In this document: positions 43,226 through 63,384 of the stretch, piece after piece
Position numbering within the stretch: the first letter of the stretch is position 1
Layout of the letters: each line of letters begins with the position of its first letter
NCBI GenBank assembly: GCA_013285645.1
Contig: JABDHJ010000002.1
Coordinates: 62,001 to 126,000 of the forward strand
Length of the DNA: 64,000 nt
Direction of reading: 5' to 3'
Origin: Verrucomicrobiota bacterium
GTDB taxonomy: Bacteria; Verrucomicrobiota; Verrucomicrobiia; Methylacidiphilales; UBA1321
Translations under genes and position numbers: made by a program
The notes under the pieces: model-generated
Seen by the model: only the letters and a program-made list of their open reading frames with translations
Database searches by the model: none
What the model was told of the DNA's origin: nothing

Positions 43226-43328
43226 ACGGAATTAACGGAATAAGGGAACGCAGAAGAAATGAGCGATGGCTACATAACAGAAAATTAATGAAATAAACCA
43301 GTGCCTCCGGACGTCTTAATAACTACAT

Positions 43329-45226: not shown

Positions 45227-45254
45227 TTGACGGAATTAACGGAATTACGGAATT
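45227..45254. repeat. Family-B repeat upstream of nuoH
   Basis: TTGACGGAATTAACGGAATT plus ACGGAATT, three ACGGAATT units in 28 bp. The same sequence lies at 49022, 51967, 52710 and, partly, at 43224, 61960 and 63243. It sits 16 bp before the nuoH start. Confidence 0.85.
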
Positions 45255-45601
45255 TTTTTAACAGGAAAACATGAAGACATGAAATACATGAAAGGAAGGC
45301 AGGAGAGGTTTGGGGGATTAGGGGTAAAGAATTTTTCTTAAGAAGGGGAAGAATCTTTTTTGGGGAGGTCTCGAATCAACCACAGCCAAAAAAAATGGCG
45401 AAAAAAGAAAACAAGGGCGATGGGAATAGTTTCACTCCACACAGGTTGTGAACTGGGAACACGGTTGCCGCATGTTTGAATGAAACGCATCAATTCAATT
45501 AAAATATACGTTTGGCAATAGGATAACCAGAAGCTGTAAAGGTTCGGCAGGAAACCCGCTCCTTTTCTGTACTCCGCGTATTTCATGGTTTCCTGTTAAA
45601 A
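45254..45601. repeat. Fold-back element of family D between nuoG and nuoH
   Basis: The left end TTTTTTAACAGGAAAACATG continues with repeats of CATGAAA (45254 to about 45297). The right end, TATTTCATGGTTTCCTGTTAAAA (given here in two parts: TATTTCATGG, TTTCCTGTTAAAA; 45579-45601), is its inverse. The interior, about 280 bp, holds an 82-codon minus-strand frame (45338-45586) that starts inside the right end. It has no motif and no good ribosome site, so I do not call it a gene. A 107-bp relative lies at 63278-63384. Confidence 0.6.
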
Positions 45602-45609
45602 CTGTGGTT

Positions 45610-47325
45610 TTAAATGGTGGCGTGCGGAGAGGGCGATGCAGTTCGGATTAAAGGAGTATTGAATTTCAGTTCGAGGCCGAGATCGCCGATTTTGCTGAGG
45701 CTTAGGCCGGCGAAAGCGGGCGTGACTTCGGCCATGGCCTTGAAGACTTCTTCGATGGTGTGGATGCCGTTGCCGCCGCCGAGGGCCGCCTTGAGTTGGA
45801 GTAGAATCTGGAAGTCGTCCATGGCGTTGCCGGGGACGGAGATCGCTTTGTTGAGGCGTTGGAGGCGACCCGTGCCGTTGATCATGGAGCCGCGCTTTTC
45901 GGCGAAGCTGGCGCCGGGCAGGACGAAGTCGGCGAGCTCGCTGGTGGGGCAGGGGAGGATTGATTGGACGGCGAGGAGCTTCACGTTTTGGATGCTGGAA
46001 ACCGGCCAGCCTGCTTCGCCCGCGAGATTTTCGTGGAAGACGAGAAGGGCTTCGATGTGACCGGTATCGACGCCGTGCCGAATCTGGCCGAGCGTCTTGC
46101 CGCCATTGGAAAGGCCGAAGAGTTCGACGCCGCGCGTATTGGGATTGAGATCGGCGCTGCGGAGAATGCCGTCGGCTTCGCCCCGGCGCGGAACGATATC
46201 GCAGAGCACGTCGTCGCCGCCGAGCGTCCGTCGAATCTGGCTGAGCAGGAAGGCTTCTTCATTGGTGAGGCGGCCGGAAGCGACAATGGCGATCTTGTCA
46301 GGGCTGAGGCCGCGCAACTGGGTGGCGAGGCTGGGGATCAGTTCGCTCCACGGCGTGGGAAGTTTGCCCTGGCCGATCTTGGCCATCGGTTCGACGAGAC
46401 GGTCGGCGTGGTGAATATAGTGGAAGCCGAGTCGGCCCTGATCGCACATCCACTGGGAATTGACCTCTTCGTTTTCGCGCGGTGTCTGGCGATAGACGAG
46501 TTGCTCGCGGCTACCGATGAGCGTGTTGCAGCCCGTCGCGCAACCGGTGCAGATGCTCTTGGTTTCCTTGAGGAACCAGACGCGCATCTGGAAGCGGAAA
46601 TCCTTGCTGGTGAGCGCGCCGACGGGGCAGATATCGACGGTGTTGAGCGAGTAATTGTTGTCGAGCCTCTTGCCGGGGTGGACGGCAAGAGTGGTGTGAC
46701 TGCCGCGATCGATGAAGCCGAGGACGTCGTCGTGGACCATCTCCTTGGAGAAGCGGATGCAGCGGGAGCACATGATGCAGCGCTCGTCGTCGAGGACGAT
46801 GCGCTCGCCGATATCGACGCGCTTCGGTTTCTTGACCTTGTCGTCGGTGAAGCGGCTGTGATCGTTGCCGTACTGGACGGAGTATTCCTGAAGTTTGCAT
46901 TCACCTGCCTGATCGCAAATGGGGCAGTCGAGCGGATGATTGATGAGCAGGAATTCCATCACGCCCTTGCGGCATTCATCGATTACGGGCGAGATGGTGC
47001 GGACGGCCATGCCCTCGGCCATGAGCGCGGCGCAACCGATTTGCGGGCGAGGCATCCAGGAAATCTCGGGCTTGCCATCGGCGGCGAGGACCGGTTTGCG
47101 GTCGGCGTCGAGCTTGGGCGTGCCGAGCTCGACCAGGCACATGCGGCAATTGCCGGAGATCGAAAGCTTGGGGTGGTAACAGTAGTGAGGGATGAATTTC
47201 TGCGCGCGGCGGGCGACTTCAACAGCGTTGAGGCCCTTGGGAAATTGCATCCAGACGCCATCGACCTGCACGTTAAGCAGGGGCGCGTCTGCCGGAGGAC
47301 TATCGTGATCGAACGGATTTTTCAC
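45610..47325 (-). CDS. nuoG: NADH-quinone oxidoreductase subunit G
   Basis: A protein of 571 residues, short for NuoG. The N-terminal [2Fe-2S] motif has C-x10-C-x2-C in 'PHYCYHPKLSISGNCRMCLV'. 'HPLDCPICDQAGECKLQ' gives the N5-type cluster with His, and 'CIMCSRCIRFSKE' plus 'VDICPVGAL' gives two more. An extra 'CTGCATGCNT' precedes the molybdopterin-oxidoreductase-like part, which ends near 'FAEKRGSMINGTGRLQRLN'. It carries electrons from NuoF towards NuoI in the peripheral arm. Confidence 0.96.
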   Translation of the reverse strand: MKNPFDHDSPPADAPLLNVQVDGVWMQFPKGLNAVEVARRAQKFIPHYCYHPKLSISGNCRMCLVELGTPKLDADRKPVLAADGKPEISWMPRPQIGCAALMAEGMAVRTISPVIDECRKGVMEFLLINHPLDCPICDQAGECKLQEYSVQYGNDHSRFTDDKVKKPKRVDIGERIVLDDERCIMCSRCIRFSKEMVHDDVLGFIDRGSHTTLAVHPGKRLDNNYSLNTVDICPVGALTSKDFRFQMRVWFLKETKSICTGCATGCNTLIGSREQLVYRQTPRENEEVNSQWMCDQGRLGFHYIHHADRLVEPMAKIGQGKLPTPWSELIPSLATQLRGLSPDKIAIVASGRLTNEEAFLLSQIRRTLGGDDVLCDIVPRRGEADGILRSADLNPNTRGVELFGLSNGGKTLGQIRHGVDTGHIEALLVFHENLAGEAGWPVSSIQNVKLLAVQSILPCPTSELADFVLPGASFAEKRGSMINGTGRLQRLNKAISVPGNAMDDFQILLQLKAALGGGNGIHTIEEVFKAMAEVTPAFAGLSLSKIGDLGLELKFNTPLIRTASPSPHATI

Positions 47326-47419
47326 AGGTACGAAGGGAGCGGGTTGACTTCAGAACTACTGGAAAAGACTCCGTTGCGCCGGACCTTGGAAGACCCGACG
47401 CAAAGGTTTTCAGCTTAGC

Positions 47420-47551
47420 TTAGGAATTCGGTTTGACGACTTCCGGGGCTGGTGGTGGTGGCGGAGGGGTTTTATCCGCACACGCGGACAGGAATGCAAC
47501 CGACACGATCACCGTACAAGCGAGTACGAAGAGTTTCGAATATGACTTCAT
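47420..47551 (-). CDS. Tiny lipoprotein between nuoF and nuoG
   Basis: A protein of 43 residues starting at ATG 47551, too short for ordinary gene finders. The signal is 'MKSYSKLFVLACTVIVSVAF' with lipobox L-S-A-C (Cys24), followed by six consecutive Pro and ending 'APEVVKPNS'. After lipidation only about 20 residues would remain, so it is a small proline-rich surface or periplasmic peptide. It lies 94 bp after nuoG's start region and 88 bp downstream of nuoF on the same strand. Function unknown; it could be chance, but the lipobox is textbook. Confidence 0.6.
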   Translation of the reverse strand: MKSYSKLFVLACTVIVSVAFLSACADKTPPPPPPAPEVVKPNS

Positions 47552-47639
47552 AGGATTTATCTGAACTTTGGTATTGGTTTAACTTACTGATATTGACGTT
47601 AGCGGGAAGTTGGTGCAGGGCAAGGCTTCGACTGAAATT

Positions 47640-49007
47640 TTAGACGGGCGCCAATTTGTTGGTCGTCGTTGACTTGGGCTTGGTCGCGAGGGCGTGGTTT
47701 TCGAACTCGTCCTTGAACTTGGTGACGAAGCTTTGGACCGGCCATGCGCAGGCCTCACCGAAGGCGCAGATGGTCTTTCCGGCGATGTTATCGGCGACGT
47801 TCTTGAGGAGGCCGATGTCGTCGGGATGGCCTTTCCCGTTGGCGAGGCGGCTGGTGATCTTTTTCATCCAGAGCGAGCCTTCACGGCAGGGCGTGCATTG
47901 GCCGCACGATTCGTGTGCGTAAAACGTGGCGATGTTGGCGAGGCATTCGACCATGTCGCGCGTCTCGTCCATGACGATGATGCCGCCGCTGCCCGCCATG
48001 GAACCGGCGGCGGCGAGGGTGTCGAAATCGAGGGGGATGTCCATCAGGCCGATTTCTTTTTCCTCCATCGAGCCGTCGGGTTTCTTGGACTTGATCTTGT
48101 AGCGCTCGCCTGCCTTGAGGACCTTGGCGGAGGAGCCGCCGGGGATGAGCGCCTTGAGTTTGCGCCCGCCCTTGATGCCGCCGCAGACGTCGTTGAGGAG
48201 TTCGCCGATGGTGAGCGCGCCGACTTCGAATTCGTAATAGCCGGGTTTCTCGACATCGCCGCTGACGCAGAGGAGTCGCGTGCCGGTGTTGTTGGGCTTG
48301 CCGATCTTGGCGTATTCGGCGCCGCCCATGGCAACGATATGCTTGATGTTACAGAGCGTTTCCACGTTGTTGACGATGGTGGGGCTCATGTAGAGACCGA
48401 GCACGGCGGGGAAGTAGGGCGGTTTGATGCGTGGGTAGGCGCGCTTGCCTTCGAGCGACTCGATGAGGCCGGTTTCCTCTCCGCAGATGTAGGCGCCTGC
48501 GCCGCGATGGATGTAGATTTCGAGATCGTAGGCGGTGCCCGCGATGCCTTTGCCGAGGTAGTTTTTGGCTTTCGCTTCCTCGATGGCTTTTTCAAGGATC
48601 TTTGCGCCCAACGTGAATTCGCCGCGAATATAGATATAGGCGAGGTGAACGTTGTTGGCGTAGCAGGCGATGGCCATGCCTTCGAGGAGTTGGTGCGGGT
48701 CCTTGTAGATGATCTGCTTGTCCTTGAAGGTGCCGGGCTCCGATTCGTCGGCGTTGCAGATGAGGTAGACGGGCTTGGTGTTCTTGGTGGGATCGATGAA
48801 GCCCCACTTCATGCCGGTGGAAAATCCGGCGCCGCCGCGCCCGCGCAGGCCGGAGGTTTTCACTTCCTTGACGATATCGGGGCCCTTCATGGTGAGGGCC
48901 TTCTTGAGGTCCTTGTAGCCGCCTACCTTGAGATAGCAGTCGATATCGATGGTATATCCCGGCTTGTCGATATTCGCGAAGATCAGTCTTTTTTCAGCAA
49001 TGGGCAT
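47640..49007 (-). CDS. nuoF: NADH-quinone oxidoreductase subunit F
   Basis: A protein of 455 residues. The FMN-binding 'GLRGRGGAGFSTGMKW' and 'NADESEPGTFKDKQII', the NADH-site 'GAGAYICGEETGLIESLEGK', and the [4Fe-4S] motif 'ESCGQCTPCREG' with the distal Cys in 'TICAFGEACAWP' are all present. It oxidises NADH and feeds electrons into complex I. The start (MPIAEKR) is preceded by the A/T-rich end of a family-B repeat and has no Shine-Dalgarno sequence. Confidence 0.97.
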   Translation of the reverse strand: MPIAEKRLIFANIDKPGYTIDIDCYLKVGGYKDLKKALTMKGPDIVKEVKTSGLRGRGGAGFSTGMKWGFIDPTKNTKPVYLICNADESEPGTFKDKQIIYKDPHQLLEGMAIACYANNVHLAYIYIRGEFTLGAKILEKAIEEAKAKNYLGKGIAGTAYDLEIYIHRGAGAYICGEETGLIESLEGKRAYPRIKPPYFPAVLGLYMSPTIVNNVETLCNIKHIVAMGGAEYAKIGKPNNTGTRLLCVSGDVEKPGYYEFEVGALTIGELLNDVCGGIKGGRKLKALIPGGSSAKVLKAGERYKIKSKKPDGSMEEKEIGLMDIPLDFDTLAAAGSMAGSGGIIVMDETRDMVECLANIATFYAHESCGQCTPCREGSLWMKKITSRLANGKGHPDDIGLLKNVADNIAGKTICAFGEACAWPVQSFVTKFKDEFENHALATKPKSTTTNKLAPV

Positions 49008-49021
49008 AAGAGGGGAAATTT

Positions 49022-49523
49022 TTGACGGAATTAACGGAATTACGGAATTAGGGGAAAGGGTTAGGAATGAAGATTGGGGGCTGCGTGGGCTTGAGTGTGC
49101 GTTTTAGTCTTGGTTTTGAATTCGAGGCTCTTGGCGCCGAAATTAAGCAACAGACCGAGATCAAGTTTGCTTGCCGCCAGATAATTCACTAGCTGGACGG
49201 AATGAGCTATGGCAAGGGCTTCAACTGCTTTTAGTTCGACAACCAGACGATTCTCGACGAGGAAGTCGGCATCGAAATAACCAATTTCAGTGCCTTCATA
49301 AAAAACATGGAACCGCTTTTCGCGTTCAAATTTGACTCCGTTATTCCGAAGTTCAATTTCCAAGGCGTTGCAATAAATTGATTCCAGAAATCCGCAGCCG
49401 AGCGTGCGATGGACTTTCATTGCAAGTCCGATGATCTGTTTGGCGAGAATATCCTCGCTGTGATCATGTCCATTCAGTCGGCTATTCATTTTTTTAATTC
49501 CGTAATTCCGTCAATTCCGTCAA
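49022..49523. mobile_element. Repeat-framed GxxExxY cassette in the nuo operon
   Basis: The left end TTGACGGAATTAACGGAATT+ACGGAATTA (49022-49050) and the right end (49495-49523) are 29-bp inverted repeats with one mismatch. Between them is almost only the GxxExxY gene. The flanks just outside are AAATTT and AAATTC. The 117-bp element at 51967-52083 has the same ends without the gene. This looks like a transposable or gene-conversion unit; no transposase is encoded in it. Confidence 0.65.
49061..49489 (-). CDS. GxxExxY protein (PD-(D/E)XK-like)
   Basis: A protein of 142 residues. 'LGCGFLESIYCNALEIEL' contains the name-giving G-x2-E-x2-Y motif, and 'YFDADFLVENRLVVELKAV' supplies Asp and E-x-K, the core of a PD-(D/E)XK nuclease. 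GxxExxY proteins are common, often multi-copy, in verrucomicrobia and planctomycetes; their role is unknown. It interrupts the nuo run between nuoE and nuoF, same strand, and is framed on both sides by 29-bp inverted repeats. The residues needed for nuclease activity appear intact. Confidence 0.88.
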   Translation of the reverse strand: MNSRLNGHDHSEDILAKQIIGLAMKVHRTLGCGFLESIYCNALEIELRNNGVKFEREKRFHVFYEGTEIGYFDADFLVENRLVVELKAVEALAIAHSVQLVNYLAASKLDLGLLLNFGAKSLEFKTKTKTHTQAHAAPNLHS

Positions 49524-49531
49524 AAATTCAG

Positions 49532-50107
49532 TCATTTGTATTTGAGGAGCAGTTCGTTGGCGCGCTGGTGGGTGACGTCTTCGTAGAAGTCGTCGTTGAT
49601 CATGATGACGGGGGCGGTGCCGCAGGCGGCGAGGCATTCGACGAATTCGACGGAGTATTTGCCGTCGGGGCTGATGGCGAGGCCGTGGGTATCGGGCTCG
49701 CCGACTTGGCACTTTTCGCGGAAATGTTCGCAGAGCTCATAGCCGCCGCCGAGCGCGCAGGAAAGCGTGCGGCAGACCCTGATCTGGATTTTGCCCGCCG
49801 GATGCTGGCGGAACATCGGGTAGAACGTGACGAGCTCAAGGATGTTGATCGGTTGGAGACCGAGTTTATGGGAGATCCATTCGATGCCCTCGGGCGAGAT
49901 GTAGCCGAAGGTCTCCTGCCAAAGATGGAGGAGAGGAAGCGATGCGCTGCGCTTGGAGACGGGATAGTGCGTGATGATTTCATCGGCTTGCGCCTCGAAG
50001 CCCTTGGGCAGGGCGGCGGCGGGATGATGCGGATCAACCGCGCCGGGATAGACTTTTTCCGGGGAGACGGTTTGAGTGGCGGGATCGACGACGCGGTTGG
50101 TGCTCAT
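49532..50107 (-). CDS. nuoE: NADH-quinone oxidoreductase subunit E
   Basis: A protein of 191 residues. The thioredoxin-like [2Fe-2S] subunit is shown by 'LPLLHLWQETFGYISPEGIEW', then the Cys pattern 'VCRTLSCALGG' and 'VECLAACGTAPVIMIND'. It has an N-terminal extension of about 45 residues. It accepts electrons from FMN side (N1a cluster). Its start overlaps the stop of the 112-aa gene by 4 nt, so it is translated together with the small genes from nuoD onwards. Confidence 0.96.
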   Translation of the reverse strand: MSTNRVVDPATQTVSPEKVYPGAVDPHHPAAALPKGFEAQADEIITHYPVSKRSASLPLLHLWQETFGYISPEGIEWISHKLGLQPINILELVTFYPMFRQHPAGKIQIRVCRTLSCALGGGYELCEHFREKCQVGEPDTHGLAISPDGKYSVEFVECLAACGTAPVIMINDDFYEDVTHQRANELLLKYK

Positions 50108-50442
50108 GTTTTGGGTGTATAGATAGGAAGCGCGGTGCGGAAAATGACTCCATTGACGAAGACAACCTGATAATCTCCTCCGGGCGGGTAGGTCGGGTAA
50201 TGGTAAACGTCGCCCGTAAGGCCGGTTGTTTCCGAATGCTCGATCTGTAGTGGCTGCCCAATGATTTGCTCGACCTGGGCCATCGAAAGGGGCGGTTTTG
50301 TTTCGTTAATTTTTTTGAAGGCAGACATGAATTTCGCTGTTTTCTCCGCCTTCAACACCATCGGAACAAGCCAAATGGCCAAGGCGACTGCGATCAGCCC
50401 CAGAACAAGGACGCCTTTTTTCAGTAGACTCGATAGGCTCAT
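50104..50442 (-). CDS. Membrane-anchored BamE-like small protein
   Basis: A protein of 112 residues. One N-terminal membrane helix ('GVLVLGLIAVALAIWLVPMV') is followed by a domain with 'PPLSMAQVEQIIGQPLQIEH' and 'GDVYHYPTYPPGGDYQVVFV'. This is the layout of SmpA/OmlA (BamE) folds, where a helix-turn precedes a small sheet. It overlaps the gene before and the gene after by 4 nt each, so it is firmly part of the nuo transcript. A role in complex I is not known; it may be an assembly or envelope factor. Confidence 0.7.
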   Translation of the reverse strand: MSLSSLLKKGVLVLGLIAVALAIWLVPMVLKAEKTAKFMSAFKKINETKPPLSMAQVEQIIGQPLQIEHSETTGLTGDVYHYPTYPPGGDYQVVFVNGVIFRTALPIYTPKT

Positions 50443-50708
50443 TGGAAATTCCCCTCCGAGGACATGACCTTGTTATCGAGGAAGGTGATTTTCACGTCGG
50501 CGGACTTGGTGTGGTAGAGGTAGACAGTGCCTTTGAAGCCGAGCATGTCGGCGGTCTGCACATCGGTCGGATTGCCGAGGATGGCCTTCACCTCGTCAAT
50601 GGTCATGCCGCTGTGGATTTTTCTCAGATTCTCATCGTTGAGTTTTGAAGTGCAGGCCACGAGTGCCAGGGCGGCGGCAAGGATCAGGAAGGGGCGTATC
50701 GATTTCAT
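50439..50708 (-). CDS. BamE-like lipoprotein
   Basis: A protein of 89 residues. The start at 50708 makes a 4-nt ATGA overlap with nuoD, which decides it over an ATG 9 nt upstream. The lipobox L-V-A-C is at Cys 19 after 'MKSIRPFLILAAALA'. The mature part, 'LRKIHSGMTIDEVKAILGNP' then 'YLYHTKSADVKITFLDNKVM', is a typical SmpA/OmlA-like domain. It is related in form to the following 112-aa gene, so the two may be an old duplication. Outer- or inner-membrane lipoprotein. Confidence 0.75.
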   Translation of the reverse strand: MKSIRPFLILAAALALVACTSKLNDENLRKIHSGMTIDEVKAILGNPTDVQTADMLGFKGTVYLYHTKSADVKITFLDNKVMSSEGNFQ

Positions 50709-51955
50709 CGGTCGCATTCTCCCATGACGAAGTCGAGGCTGCCAAGGATGGCGACAACATCGCTCATCATATGGCCGGGCAAAAGCTTGCTGAGGATGCT
50801 CAAGTTGACGAAGGACGGGGCGCGAATCTTCAGGCGGTACGGAACGCCGCCGCCCTTGCTATTGATATAGAAGCCGAGTTCGCCCTTTGGATTTTCCGCG
50901 CCGAAATAGATTTCGCCCACGGGCGCCTGAATGCCCTCGGTGACGAGGATGAACTGGTGGATGAGTTCCTCCATCTTGGTCAGCACCTTGTCCTTGTGGG
51001 GGAGGAAGCCCTTGCCATCGACGACGTTGATGGGGCCGCCGGGCAGATTCCGCAAAGCCTGTTCCAGGATGTGGGTGCTCTGGCGCAGTTCCTCGAGCCG
51101 GACGAGATAGCGGTCATAGGCATCGCCAACGGAACCGGTCGGGATCGAGAAGCTGTACTCGGAATAGTTGAGATAGGGGCGGTTCTTGCGGACATCATAG
51201 GAAACGCCGCTGCCGCGCAGATTGGGGCCGGTAAGGCCGAAATCGAGAGCATCTTCCTTCGAGATGATGCCGATGCCCTTGTTGCGATCGACGAAGATTT
51301 TGTTGCGGGTGAGCAACTGGTCGAGTTCCTCAATCTTGCCCTTGAATTGCTCGACGAAGGCCTTGGCCTGCTCGACGAATCCGGGCGGGAGGTCGCGGGT
51401 GAGGCCGCCGATGCGTGTGTAGCTGGTGGTGAAGCGCGCGCCGGTGAGCAGCTCGATCAGGTTGTAGATTTTTTCGCGCTCGGTGAAGATATAGAGGAAG
51501 ACGGTCATCGCGCCGCAATCCATGGCGAGCGCGCCCATGCCGAGGAGATGCGCGGAGATGCGGGCCAACTCGCAGCAGATGACGCGGATGACCTGGCCGC
51601 GCGGCGGGACGGTCCAACCCATGAGCTTTTCGACGGCGAGGGCGTAGGCGACGTTGTTGGCCAGAGGGGCGAGGTAATCGAGCCGGTCCGTGTAGGGCAC
51701 GAACTGGTTGTAGGTCATGTTCTCGGCGATCTTCTCGTCACCGCGATGGAGGTAGCCGATGTCAGGCATCGCGTGGGTGACGATTTCGCCATCGAGCTCC
51801 AGCAAAACGCGCAAAACGCCGTGCGTGCTGGGGTGGGACGGCCCCATGTTGAGCGTGAGTTTCTCGCCCAAAGGTCCGCCTTCGGAACGCGCCTGTTCGT
51901 ATTGCTTCGCCGCGCGCGCGACGCTGTCGGGTGTTTCTAGGATGGTCTCAGGCAT
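50705..51955 (-). CDS. nuoD: NADH-quinone oxidoreductase subunit D
   Basis: A protein of 416 residues. 'LNMGPSHPSTHGVLRVLLEL' and 'IGYLHRGDEKIAENMTYNQF' near the N-terminus, 'GMGALAMDCGAMTVFLYIF', and the C-terminal 'VVAILGSLDFVMGECDR' are the 49-kDa-subunit motifs, including the quinone-site His and Tyr region. The stop overlaps the lipoprotein gene by 4 nt. The start lies 11 bp after a family-B miniature element and lacks a Shine-Dalgarno sequence. Confidence 0.97.
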   Translation of the reverse strand: MPETILETPDSVARAAKQYEQARSEGGPLGEKLTLNMGPSHPSTHGVLRVLLELDGEIVTHAMPDIGYLHRGDEKIAENMTYNQFVPYTDRLDYLAPLANNVAYALAVEKLMGWTVPPRGQVIRVICCELARISAHLLGMGALAMDCGAMTVFLYIFTEREKIYNLIELLTGARFTTSYTRIGGLTRDLPPGFVEQAKAFVEQFKGKIEELDQLLTRNKIFVDRNKGIGIISKEDALDFGLTGPNLRGSGVSYDVRKNRPYLNYSEYSFSIPTGSVGDAYDRYLVRLEELRQSTHILEQALRNLPGGPINVVDGKGFLPHKDKVLTKMEELIHQFILVTEGIQAPVGEIYFGAENPKGELGFYINSKGGGVPYRLKIRAPSFVNLSILSKLLPGHMMSDVVAILGSLDFVMGECDR

Positions 51956-51966
51956 AGGGGGAATTT

Positions 51967-52083
51967 TTGACGGAATTAACGGAATTACGGAATTAGGGAA
52001 AAAGGGTTGGAGCTGAAGGTTGAGGCTTTATTTTGAATCCTGTTACTGATGCTTTAATTCCGTAATTCCGTTAATTCCGTCAA
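51967..52083. mobile_element. 117-bp miniature element with perfect 29-bp terminal inverted repeats
   Basis: 51967-51995 and 52055-52083 are exact inverse copies (each begins or ends TTGACGGAATTAACGGAATT). The 59-bp interior begins GGGAAAAAGGGTTGGAGCTG and contains a TTTTGAATC stretch. It resembles the 3' end of the GxxExxY cassette (GGGTTAGGAATGAAGATTGG ... TTTTGAATTC), so it is probably a deletion derivative. It fills the nuoC-nuoD gap completely. Confidence 0.75.
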
Positions 52084-52087
52084 AATT

Positions 52088-52709: not shown

Positions 52710-52768
52710 TTGACGGAATTAACGGAATTACGGAATTTTTTAGACGGGATTAACAAGATTAGGGGCGG
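52710..52768. repeat. Family-B repeat plus GATTAACA-type repeat upstream of nuoC
   Basis: TTGACGGAATTAACGGAATT with a further ACGGAATT (52710-52737) is followed by TTTTTAGACGGGATTAACAA (from 52737), which recurs at 61980-62018. It overlaps the 3' end of the preceding membrane-protein gene. Confidence 0.75.
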
Positions 52769-60848: not shown

Positions 60849-62189
<1,341 letters not shown>

Positions 62190-63242: not shown

Positions 63243-63384
63243 TTGACGGAATTAACGGAATTACCAAATTAACGGAATTTTTTTAACAGGAAAACATGAA
63301 GGCATGAAAACATGAAAAATGCAGCTTAAACTCAAGAGAGTTACAGCGGGTTCCTTCATGTATTTCATGTCTTCCTGTTAAAAA
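63243..63384. repeat. Family-B repeat followed by a family-D fold-back
   Basis: TTGACGGAATTAACGGAATT (63243 on), a degenerate ACCAAATT and another ACGGAATT are followed by TTTTTTTAACAGGAAAACAT (63278 on). The inverse ...ATGTCTTCCTGTTAAAA ends at 63384. The fold-back of about 107 bp is a short relative of that at 45254-45601. Confidence 0.7.

Follow-up and report, generated by a model that had tools for sequence, protein, structure and literature searches.

Introduction

Two described systems come closest to the locus studied here. In REPIN-RAYT systems a dedicated gene, RAYT, is flanked by its own type of REP sequence and inherited mostly vertically, and the REP doublets fold as hairpins (PMC3116915). 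The intervening sequence (IVS) of Coxiella is a 428 nt unit with a 28-bp terminal stem, in which two or three tandem heptamers precede an S23p ORF (PMC4990558). Intergenic tandem repeats of short units are also on record, namely the heptamers GGGAATC and GGGGAYT of Xanthomonas and Nostoc, those of Xanthomonas frequently paired in inverted orientation (PMC4692102), and TAACTGA of Beggiatoaceae (PMC4679880); the accessible parts of these two reports associate no gene with the repeats, whose 7-nt units are closer to the PF05635 arms described below than to those of GxxExxY genes.

GxxExxY proteins have no described function beyond the domain name. The literature that names them is scarce and none of it deals with repeats, and we found no earlier description of an association between GxxExxY genes and repeat arms, subscription-only papers and preprints aside. 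Here we analysed a stretch of 64,000 nucleotides of a Verrucomicrobiota genome (contig JABDHJ010000002.1; hereafter the window), in which a GxxExxY gene lies between inverted arms inside the nuo operon. We consider that the locus probably represents a widespread, transposase-free repeat element, made of a GxxExxY nuclease and inverted arms of tandem units, with the nuclease driving arm exchange and copying.

Results and Discussion

The Element in the Window

The element occupies the gap between nuoE and nuoF (Table 1). Its two arms, of 34 nt each, are 97% complementary and lie 444 nt apart, and the full unit including both arms measures 512 bp. The single ORF within the arms, oriented as the operon, encodes a GxxExxY protein according to both TIGR04256 (E 1.3e-40, 138.3 bits, curated cut-off 35) and PF13366 (E 1.4e-38, 132.3 bits, curated cut-off 22). 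PF13366 was its only Pfam match, with none to S23p/PF05635, and no Rfam family was found for the element. There is room for GxxExxY only: neither a second gene nor any match to a transposase family was detected between the arms. The initial annotation had described a gene bounded by 29-bp inverted repeats with one mismatch, placed between nuoF and nuoE without breaking the direction of the operon, and had suggested an element devoid of transposase; all of this held except the length of the repeats, which had been taken too short.

Table 1: Features of the element and of related repeats in the window.
Feature	Position	Strand	Evidence
3'-side inverted arm, T-run and three ACGGAATT units (AATTTTTGACGGAATTAACGGAATTACGGAATTA)	49017..49050	+	Inverted-repeat search; matched arms in other genomes
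GxxExxY/PDDEXK_3 protein, 142 aa, predicted RecB/Cas4-like fold	49061..49489	-	ORF, profiles, alignment, model
5'-side inverted arm, one mismatch to the other arm	49495..49528	-	Inverted-repeat search
nuoE, upstream operon neighbour	49532..50107	-	
nuoF, downstream operon neighbour	47640..49007	-	
Gene-less inverted doublet of ACGGAATT arms, nuoC-nuoD gap	51965..52085	.	Hairpin z -9.8
Single arm, nuoG-nuoH gap; adjoins other short-unit repeats framing a small ORF	45230..45254	+	
Single arm near the nuoC start	52713..52737	+	
Partial arm, two units	61965..61981	+	
Variant arm ACGGAATTAACGGAATTACCAAATTAACGGAATT	63246..63279	+	

The arms also stand without the gene, as first proposed, both at other nuo junctions and elsewhere in the same genome (G000). 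The window contains 24 copies of ACGGAATT where 3.05 would be expected, and none of 100 shuffles reached 24; a further partial copy lies near 43226. Pattern searches of the whole genome with up to 3 mismatches gave 32 copies of ACGGAATTNACGGAATTACGGAATT and 0 of its reversed control. The genome has two PF13366 genes only, and the second (C5) is flanked by weaker repeats of a different type, AAAGAACGCAAAGA. The assembly (3.18 Mb, 100 contigs) is 66% complete, so absences in it carry little weight. Short-unit inverted arms were also seen around small ORFs that look membrane-like by eye (window 45338-45586; L020, 1527-1900).

The Protein

The AlphaFold model of the protein (pLDDT 86.6, pTM 0.80) had as its best match among solved folds SSO0001 (4ic1; Z 10.3), a Cas4-type nuclease, followed by restriction enzymes; lambda exonuclease, LHK-Exo and MGME1 were also among the Foldseek matches. 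The GxxExxY motif was invariant in 18 diverse members, as were D75, K87, Q99, and Y103, and E85 was invariant in a 32-row alignment. The pattern D..ExK..QxxxY is that of RecB-type nucleases. By the residues of the family and the modelled fold together, GxxExxY is a RecB/Cas4-like PD-(D/E)XK nuclease, in agreement with the PD-(D/E)XK core suggested at the outset. It shares with Cas4 the match to the SSO0001 fold and the residue pattern; however, it is short and single-domain, lacks the four conserved cysteines of a Cas4 Fe-S cluster, and has no CRISPR genes adjoining it in the window. Since no cysteine was found in the invariant or nearly invariant columns of the 18-member and 32-row alignments, it is not Cas4 proper. 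Identity with a Holliday junction resolvase was weakened by the lower score of Hjc (1gef, Z 6.9 versus 10.3 for SSO0001). Sequence searches of the PDB with protein and profile queries gave no meaningful match, and PADLOC and PHROGs gave weak matches only. In every pair with estimable dS, omega was at most 0.16, which indicates strong purifying selection on the gene.

The likeness to the IVS lies in the anatomy, one short ORF enclosed by terminal inverted repeats that contain short units in tandem, and in a similar size. The IVS, however, is located in 23S rRNA and the present element between protein genes, the protein is GxxExxY and not S23p/PF05635, and the units have a period of 8-10 and not 7-8. 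This anatomy, the maintained complementarity of the arms and the gene running along the operon at nuo would suit an element acting at the RNA level, whose arms would form a stem in the mRNA of the operon for RNase III to cleave, and which would persist as a neutral RNA insertion with an RNA-related protein or one of no role. We regard this as quite improbable, considering that the doublets invert and occupy many intergenic sites (see below), that the fold resembles DNA nucleases and that the gene is selected for.

The nuo Site in Related Genomes

A GxxExxY gene with matched arms was found between nuoE and nuoF in G000, G002, G004, G005, G010, and G011. In G001 the junction holds an inverted pair with no gene, in G006 nested repeats and a remnant of the GxxExxY 3' end, and it is empty in G003, G007, G008, G009, G012, and G013; in a sister genus it is filled too. 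The GxxExxY proteins of this junction group in a single clade (83/79; 99/98 for the genus part), and its branching order shows no conflict with the NuoF/D/G tree. In view of this agreement, the simplest account is an old element passed on vertically and lost in several relatives; a recent insertion was discarded on the same grounds and because of the filled junction of the sister genus. The left and right arms of one element are on average 94% alike versus 50% for orthologous arms between genomes, and therefore both arms change together. A second, related GxxExxY copy lies between nuoC and nuoD in G001, G002, G004, and G005, with arms of the ACAGGATT type or close variants, and at this place G000 has only the gene-less doublet and no GxxExxY gene.

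Empty sites, which the initial annotation had proposed to look for, do exist. Target duplications, proposed for the same check, were not seen at G009/G010, nor at the loci L139, L117, and L305/L335 discussed below; at all of these the compared sequences have already diverged. In G009 the last codons of nuoE differ from those of G010 though the surroundings are 95-96% identical, and no clean excision was seen there. At the empty sites compared, gain or loss of the element rewrites a few neighbouring codons.

Inverted Arms in Other Genomes

In the comparison set each species was represented by a single genome, in many cases a fragmented assembly, and contig ends often lie near repeats. PF13366 was present in 21 of the 60 related genomes, some of which gave as many as 8 matches or more. 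Framing was measured as an alignment score within fixed flank windows: the 250 nt before the gene and the 300 nt after it were compared in inverted orientation and the best match was taken, with a threshold of at least 30. Inverted arms were detected by this measure at 55 of 66 GxxExxY loci in the 21 genomes (median 44.5), against 0 of 30 smpB controls from related genomes (maximum 25). Mismatched flank pairs reached 30 in 19 of 503 cases (4%), shuffled flanks had a maximum of 21, and in direct orientation 12 of the 66 loci attained the threshold. In a wide taxonomic scan (80 matches, from bacteria and one methanogen record) 38 of 78 scorable loci scored at least 30. The co-occurrence of gene and flanks that had been predicted for relatives was thus found, though not everywhere: armless genes exist, among them many Sphingomonadales loci, and so arms are usual but not obligatory. 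The armless Sphingomonadales genes (L206, L207, L209, L215, L223, L226-L230, and others) apparently have a common gene neighbourhood, and are perhaps a domesticated form.

Such genes, together with homologues in just 7 of 72,556 plasmids, none in phages with one query, the vertical inheritance at nuo and the purifying selection, might be explained by a host gene with a house job in DNA repair or end processing, the arms being mere regulatory hairpins or terminators. We find this very improbable in general, since presence is patchy, several divergent copies occur per genome, sites are found empty or exchanged, and matching gene-less arms are spread genome-wide.

Arm Design and Its Relationship with the Gene

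The sequences of the arms are wholly different between loci (ACGGAATT, ACAGGATT, CACGGAT, CGCGGAG, CACGAAG, CACTAAT, GCCGCAAAAGAACGCAAA, and others). Their design is common, often a T/A run and then about 3 tandem units. The unit period was 8, 9, or 10 in 51 of 53 GxxExxY arms of the related genomes, and 8 in 28 of 34 arms of the wide scan. In the same genomes, genes of PF05635, the protein of 23S rRNA intervening sequences, had inverted arms at 22 of 28 loci outside rRNA (L086-L115), with units of 7 or 8 nt in 21 of the 22. PF05635 proteins are four-helix bundles, and their elements have the same design as those of GxxExxY with another period.

Protein identity correlated with arm similarity (Mantel r approximately 0.65; maximum of 5000 permutations 0.16). 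When arms were reshuffled within genomes only, 0 of 5000 permutations reached the observed 0.657 (maximum 0.38); the correlation is partly explained by linkage. As for copies across the genome, three tandem ACGGAATT units are abundant only in G000 (32) and G004 (18), both of which have nuo elements with ACGGAATT arms, and the copies of G030 are of the AAGATGG variant present in the arm of its own GxxExxY gene. On the other hand, no cognate gene was found in G007, with 29 copies of ACAGGATT, nor in G020, with 111 of CACGGAT, which rules out a strict rule of one gene to one repeat. The initial annotation would have been contradicted by repeats evolving independently of the gene; the ACGGAATT counts, highest where GxxExxY arms match, speak for coupling and G007 and G020 against it, and the coupling is valid at genus level. 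Another interspersed repeat (ATGACTCTTGCCCCGACTTTC...; L306, 1691-1871, and L338-L350) is present at many sites of G033, often adjoining doublets.

The main rival explanation takes the arms as the active part, which would spread, flip, and convert as the host replicates or recombines its DNA, through template switching or short-homology exchange, with GxxExxY as one of several small genes often caught inside. Gene-less doublets do greatly outnumber genes, G007 and G020 are rich in repeats with no cognate gene found, and arms also enclose small ORFs and PF05635 genes. Nevertheless we judge it unlikely, taking into account the strong purifying selection on the gene and an arm type that tracks the protein clade even against reshuffling within genomes. 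The arm period is also at odds with it: 8-10 for GxxExxY versus 7-8 for PF05635, and therefore cargo and arm design go together.

Inversion and Exchange

Most CACGGAT copies of G033 and G020 are paired as convergent doublets, the two starts usually being 40-80 bp apart. Hairpins predicted for doublets are strong (z approximately -12.6 for one CACGGAT doublet; Table 1 for that of the window), and a lone arm folds weakly. We compared orthologous CACGGAT doublets between these two genomes (L274-L300, L303-L337), at sites with flanks mostly >90% identical, and in this one genome pair 8 of 14 had the same orientation and 6 of 14 were inverted. At L276/L298 the arms were swapped along with the centre, and one CGCGGAG doublet was also inverted. 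Of about 12 chance hairpins, most of them coding-like and with shorter stems than the doublets, 0 were inverted. Other junctions of this pair have a different doublet (L310/L336), a replaced centre (L316/L330), or presence in one genome and absence in the other with about 50 bp of target lost (L305/L335). The genes of L117 and L139 in G033 are absent from G020, where the junctions hold other gene-less repeats and the neighbouring codons are rewritten. No fixed insertion rule was found at the sites compared.

Whole cassettes are exchanged as well. At L054/L055 the flanks are 97-99% identical and the left arms nearly so, while gene identity is 67% (dS 2.2); at L035/L036 it is 65%, with arms less conserved than in the former pair. 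In both pairs the genes are only 65-67% identical and the outer flanks approximately 96-99%, from which it follows that the site stayed fixed and the cassette in it was exchanged. The junction before gatB, a gene named from its encoded sequence, holds the PF05635 element L088 in G033 and the GxxExxY element L143 in G020, with flanks 97% identical. Three gene-less junctions of G006 keep the 3' end of the GxxExxY gene, its last 18 nt, beside arms, as expected of derivatives by internal deletion.

With MITEs and insertion sequences the element, which itself lacks a transposase, has in common the terminal inverted repeats, the gene-less forms and the remnants of gene ends. Such features would also be seen if an ordinary insertion sequence, with its transposase elsewhere in the genome, had given rise to a non-autonomous form. 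We hold such an origin to be extremely improbable: the ends of the elements are not conserved but wholly different between loci, no target duplication was seen at the compared, already diverged sites, and the usual presence of one protein family inside would be needless for a transposase acting in trans.

Proposed Mechanism

We favour instead a GxxExxY nuclease that would act on, move, copy, or maintain its own arms. The nuclease would recognise them when extruded as a hairpin or cruciform or when single-stranded, and would cut or resect there. Cutting could drive exchange by short homology, with arm conversion, inversion, and cassette exchange as outcomes, and occasionally arms or doublets might be copied to new intergenic junctions. 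The unit at the nuo site is in this reading an old resident kept by selection on the nuclease and no recent jumper.

The relationship of nuclease and arms may be analogous to that of RAYT and REPINs, with other enzyme chemistry. In both cases dispersed intergenic inverted doublets form hairpins and the enzyme gene is flanked by the same repeat; nevertheless, GxxExxY is, as modelled, a PD-(D/E)XK nuclease and RAYT an HUH Y1 tyrosine transposase, and the arms consist of tandem direct units of 8-10 nt where REPs are palindromic. The element would thus work in a RAYT-REPIN-like way, has an IVS-like anatomy, and is a member of neither group.

More tentatively, GxxExxY and its arms could constitute a class of their own among DNA elements, selfish or mutualist, whose members persist and spread because a RecB/Cas4-type nuclease processes their hairpin ends, and which do without transposase, integrase, and reverse transcriptase; PF05635/IVS could be a parallel class with 7-8-nt units; we hold this to be possible, if somewhat less than an even chance. 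If true, the two classes together would explain many of the puzzling short repeats that are interspersed in the genomes of environmental bacteria. The tie to a dispersed repeat family gives GxxExxY proteins a testable role, and provides a candidate maintenance enzyme for many inverted repeats of short tandem units such as ACGGAATT, CACGGAT, and CGCGGAG; it also offers a possible counterpart to RAYT-REPIN with different chemistry. The 7-8-nt design of PF05635 elements bears on the old question of the origin and movement of 23S rRNA intervening sequences.

Other Small Genes of the nuo Operon

Two further gaps of the operon hold small genes. A short lipoprotein-like ORF (MKSY..LSAC..PPPPPP..) lies between nuoF and nuoG (window 47325-47640), is kept across the genus and occupies the same gap in G002-G007. 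Between nuoD and nuoE (window 50104-50717; orthologues L181-L192) there are 1-3 related small secreted or lipoprotein-like genes, whose number varies, with tandem copies in G006.
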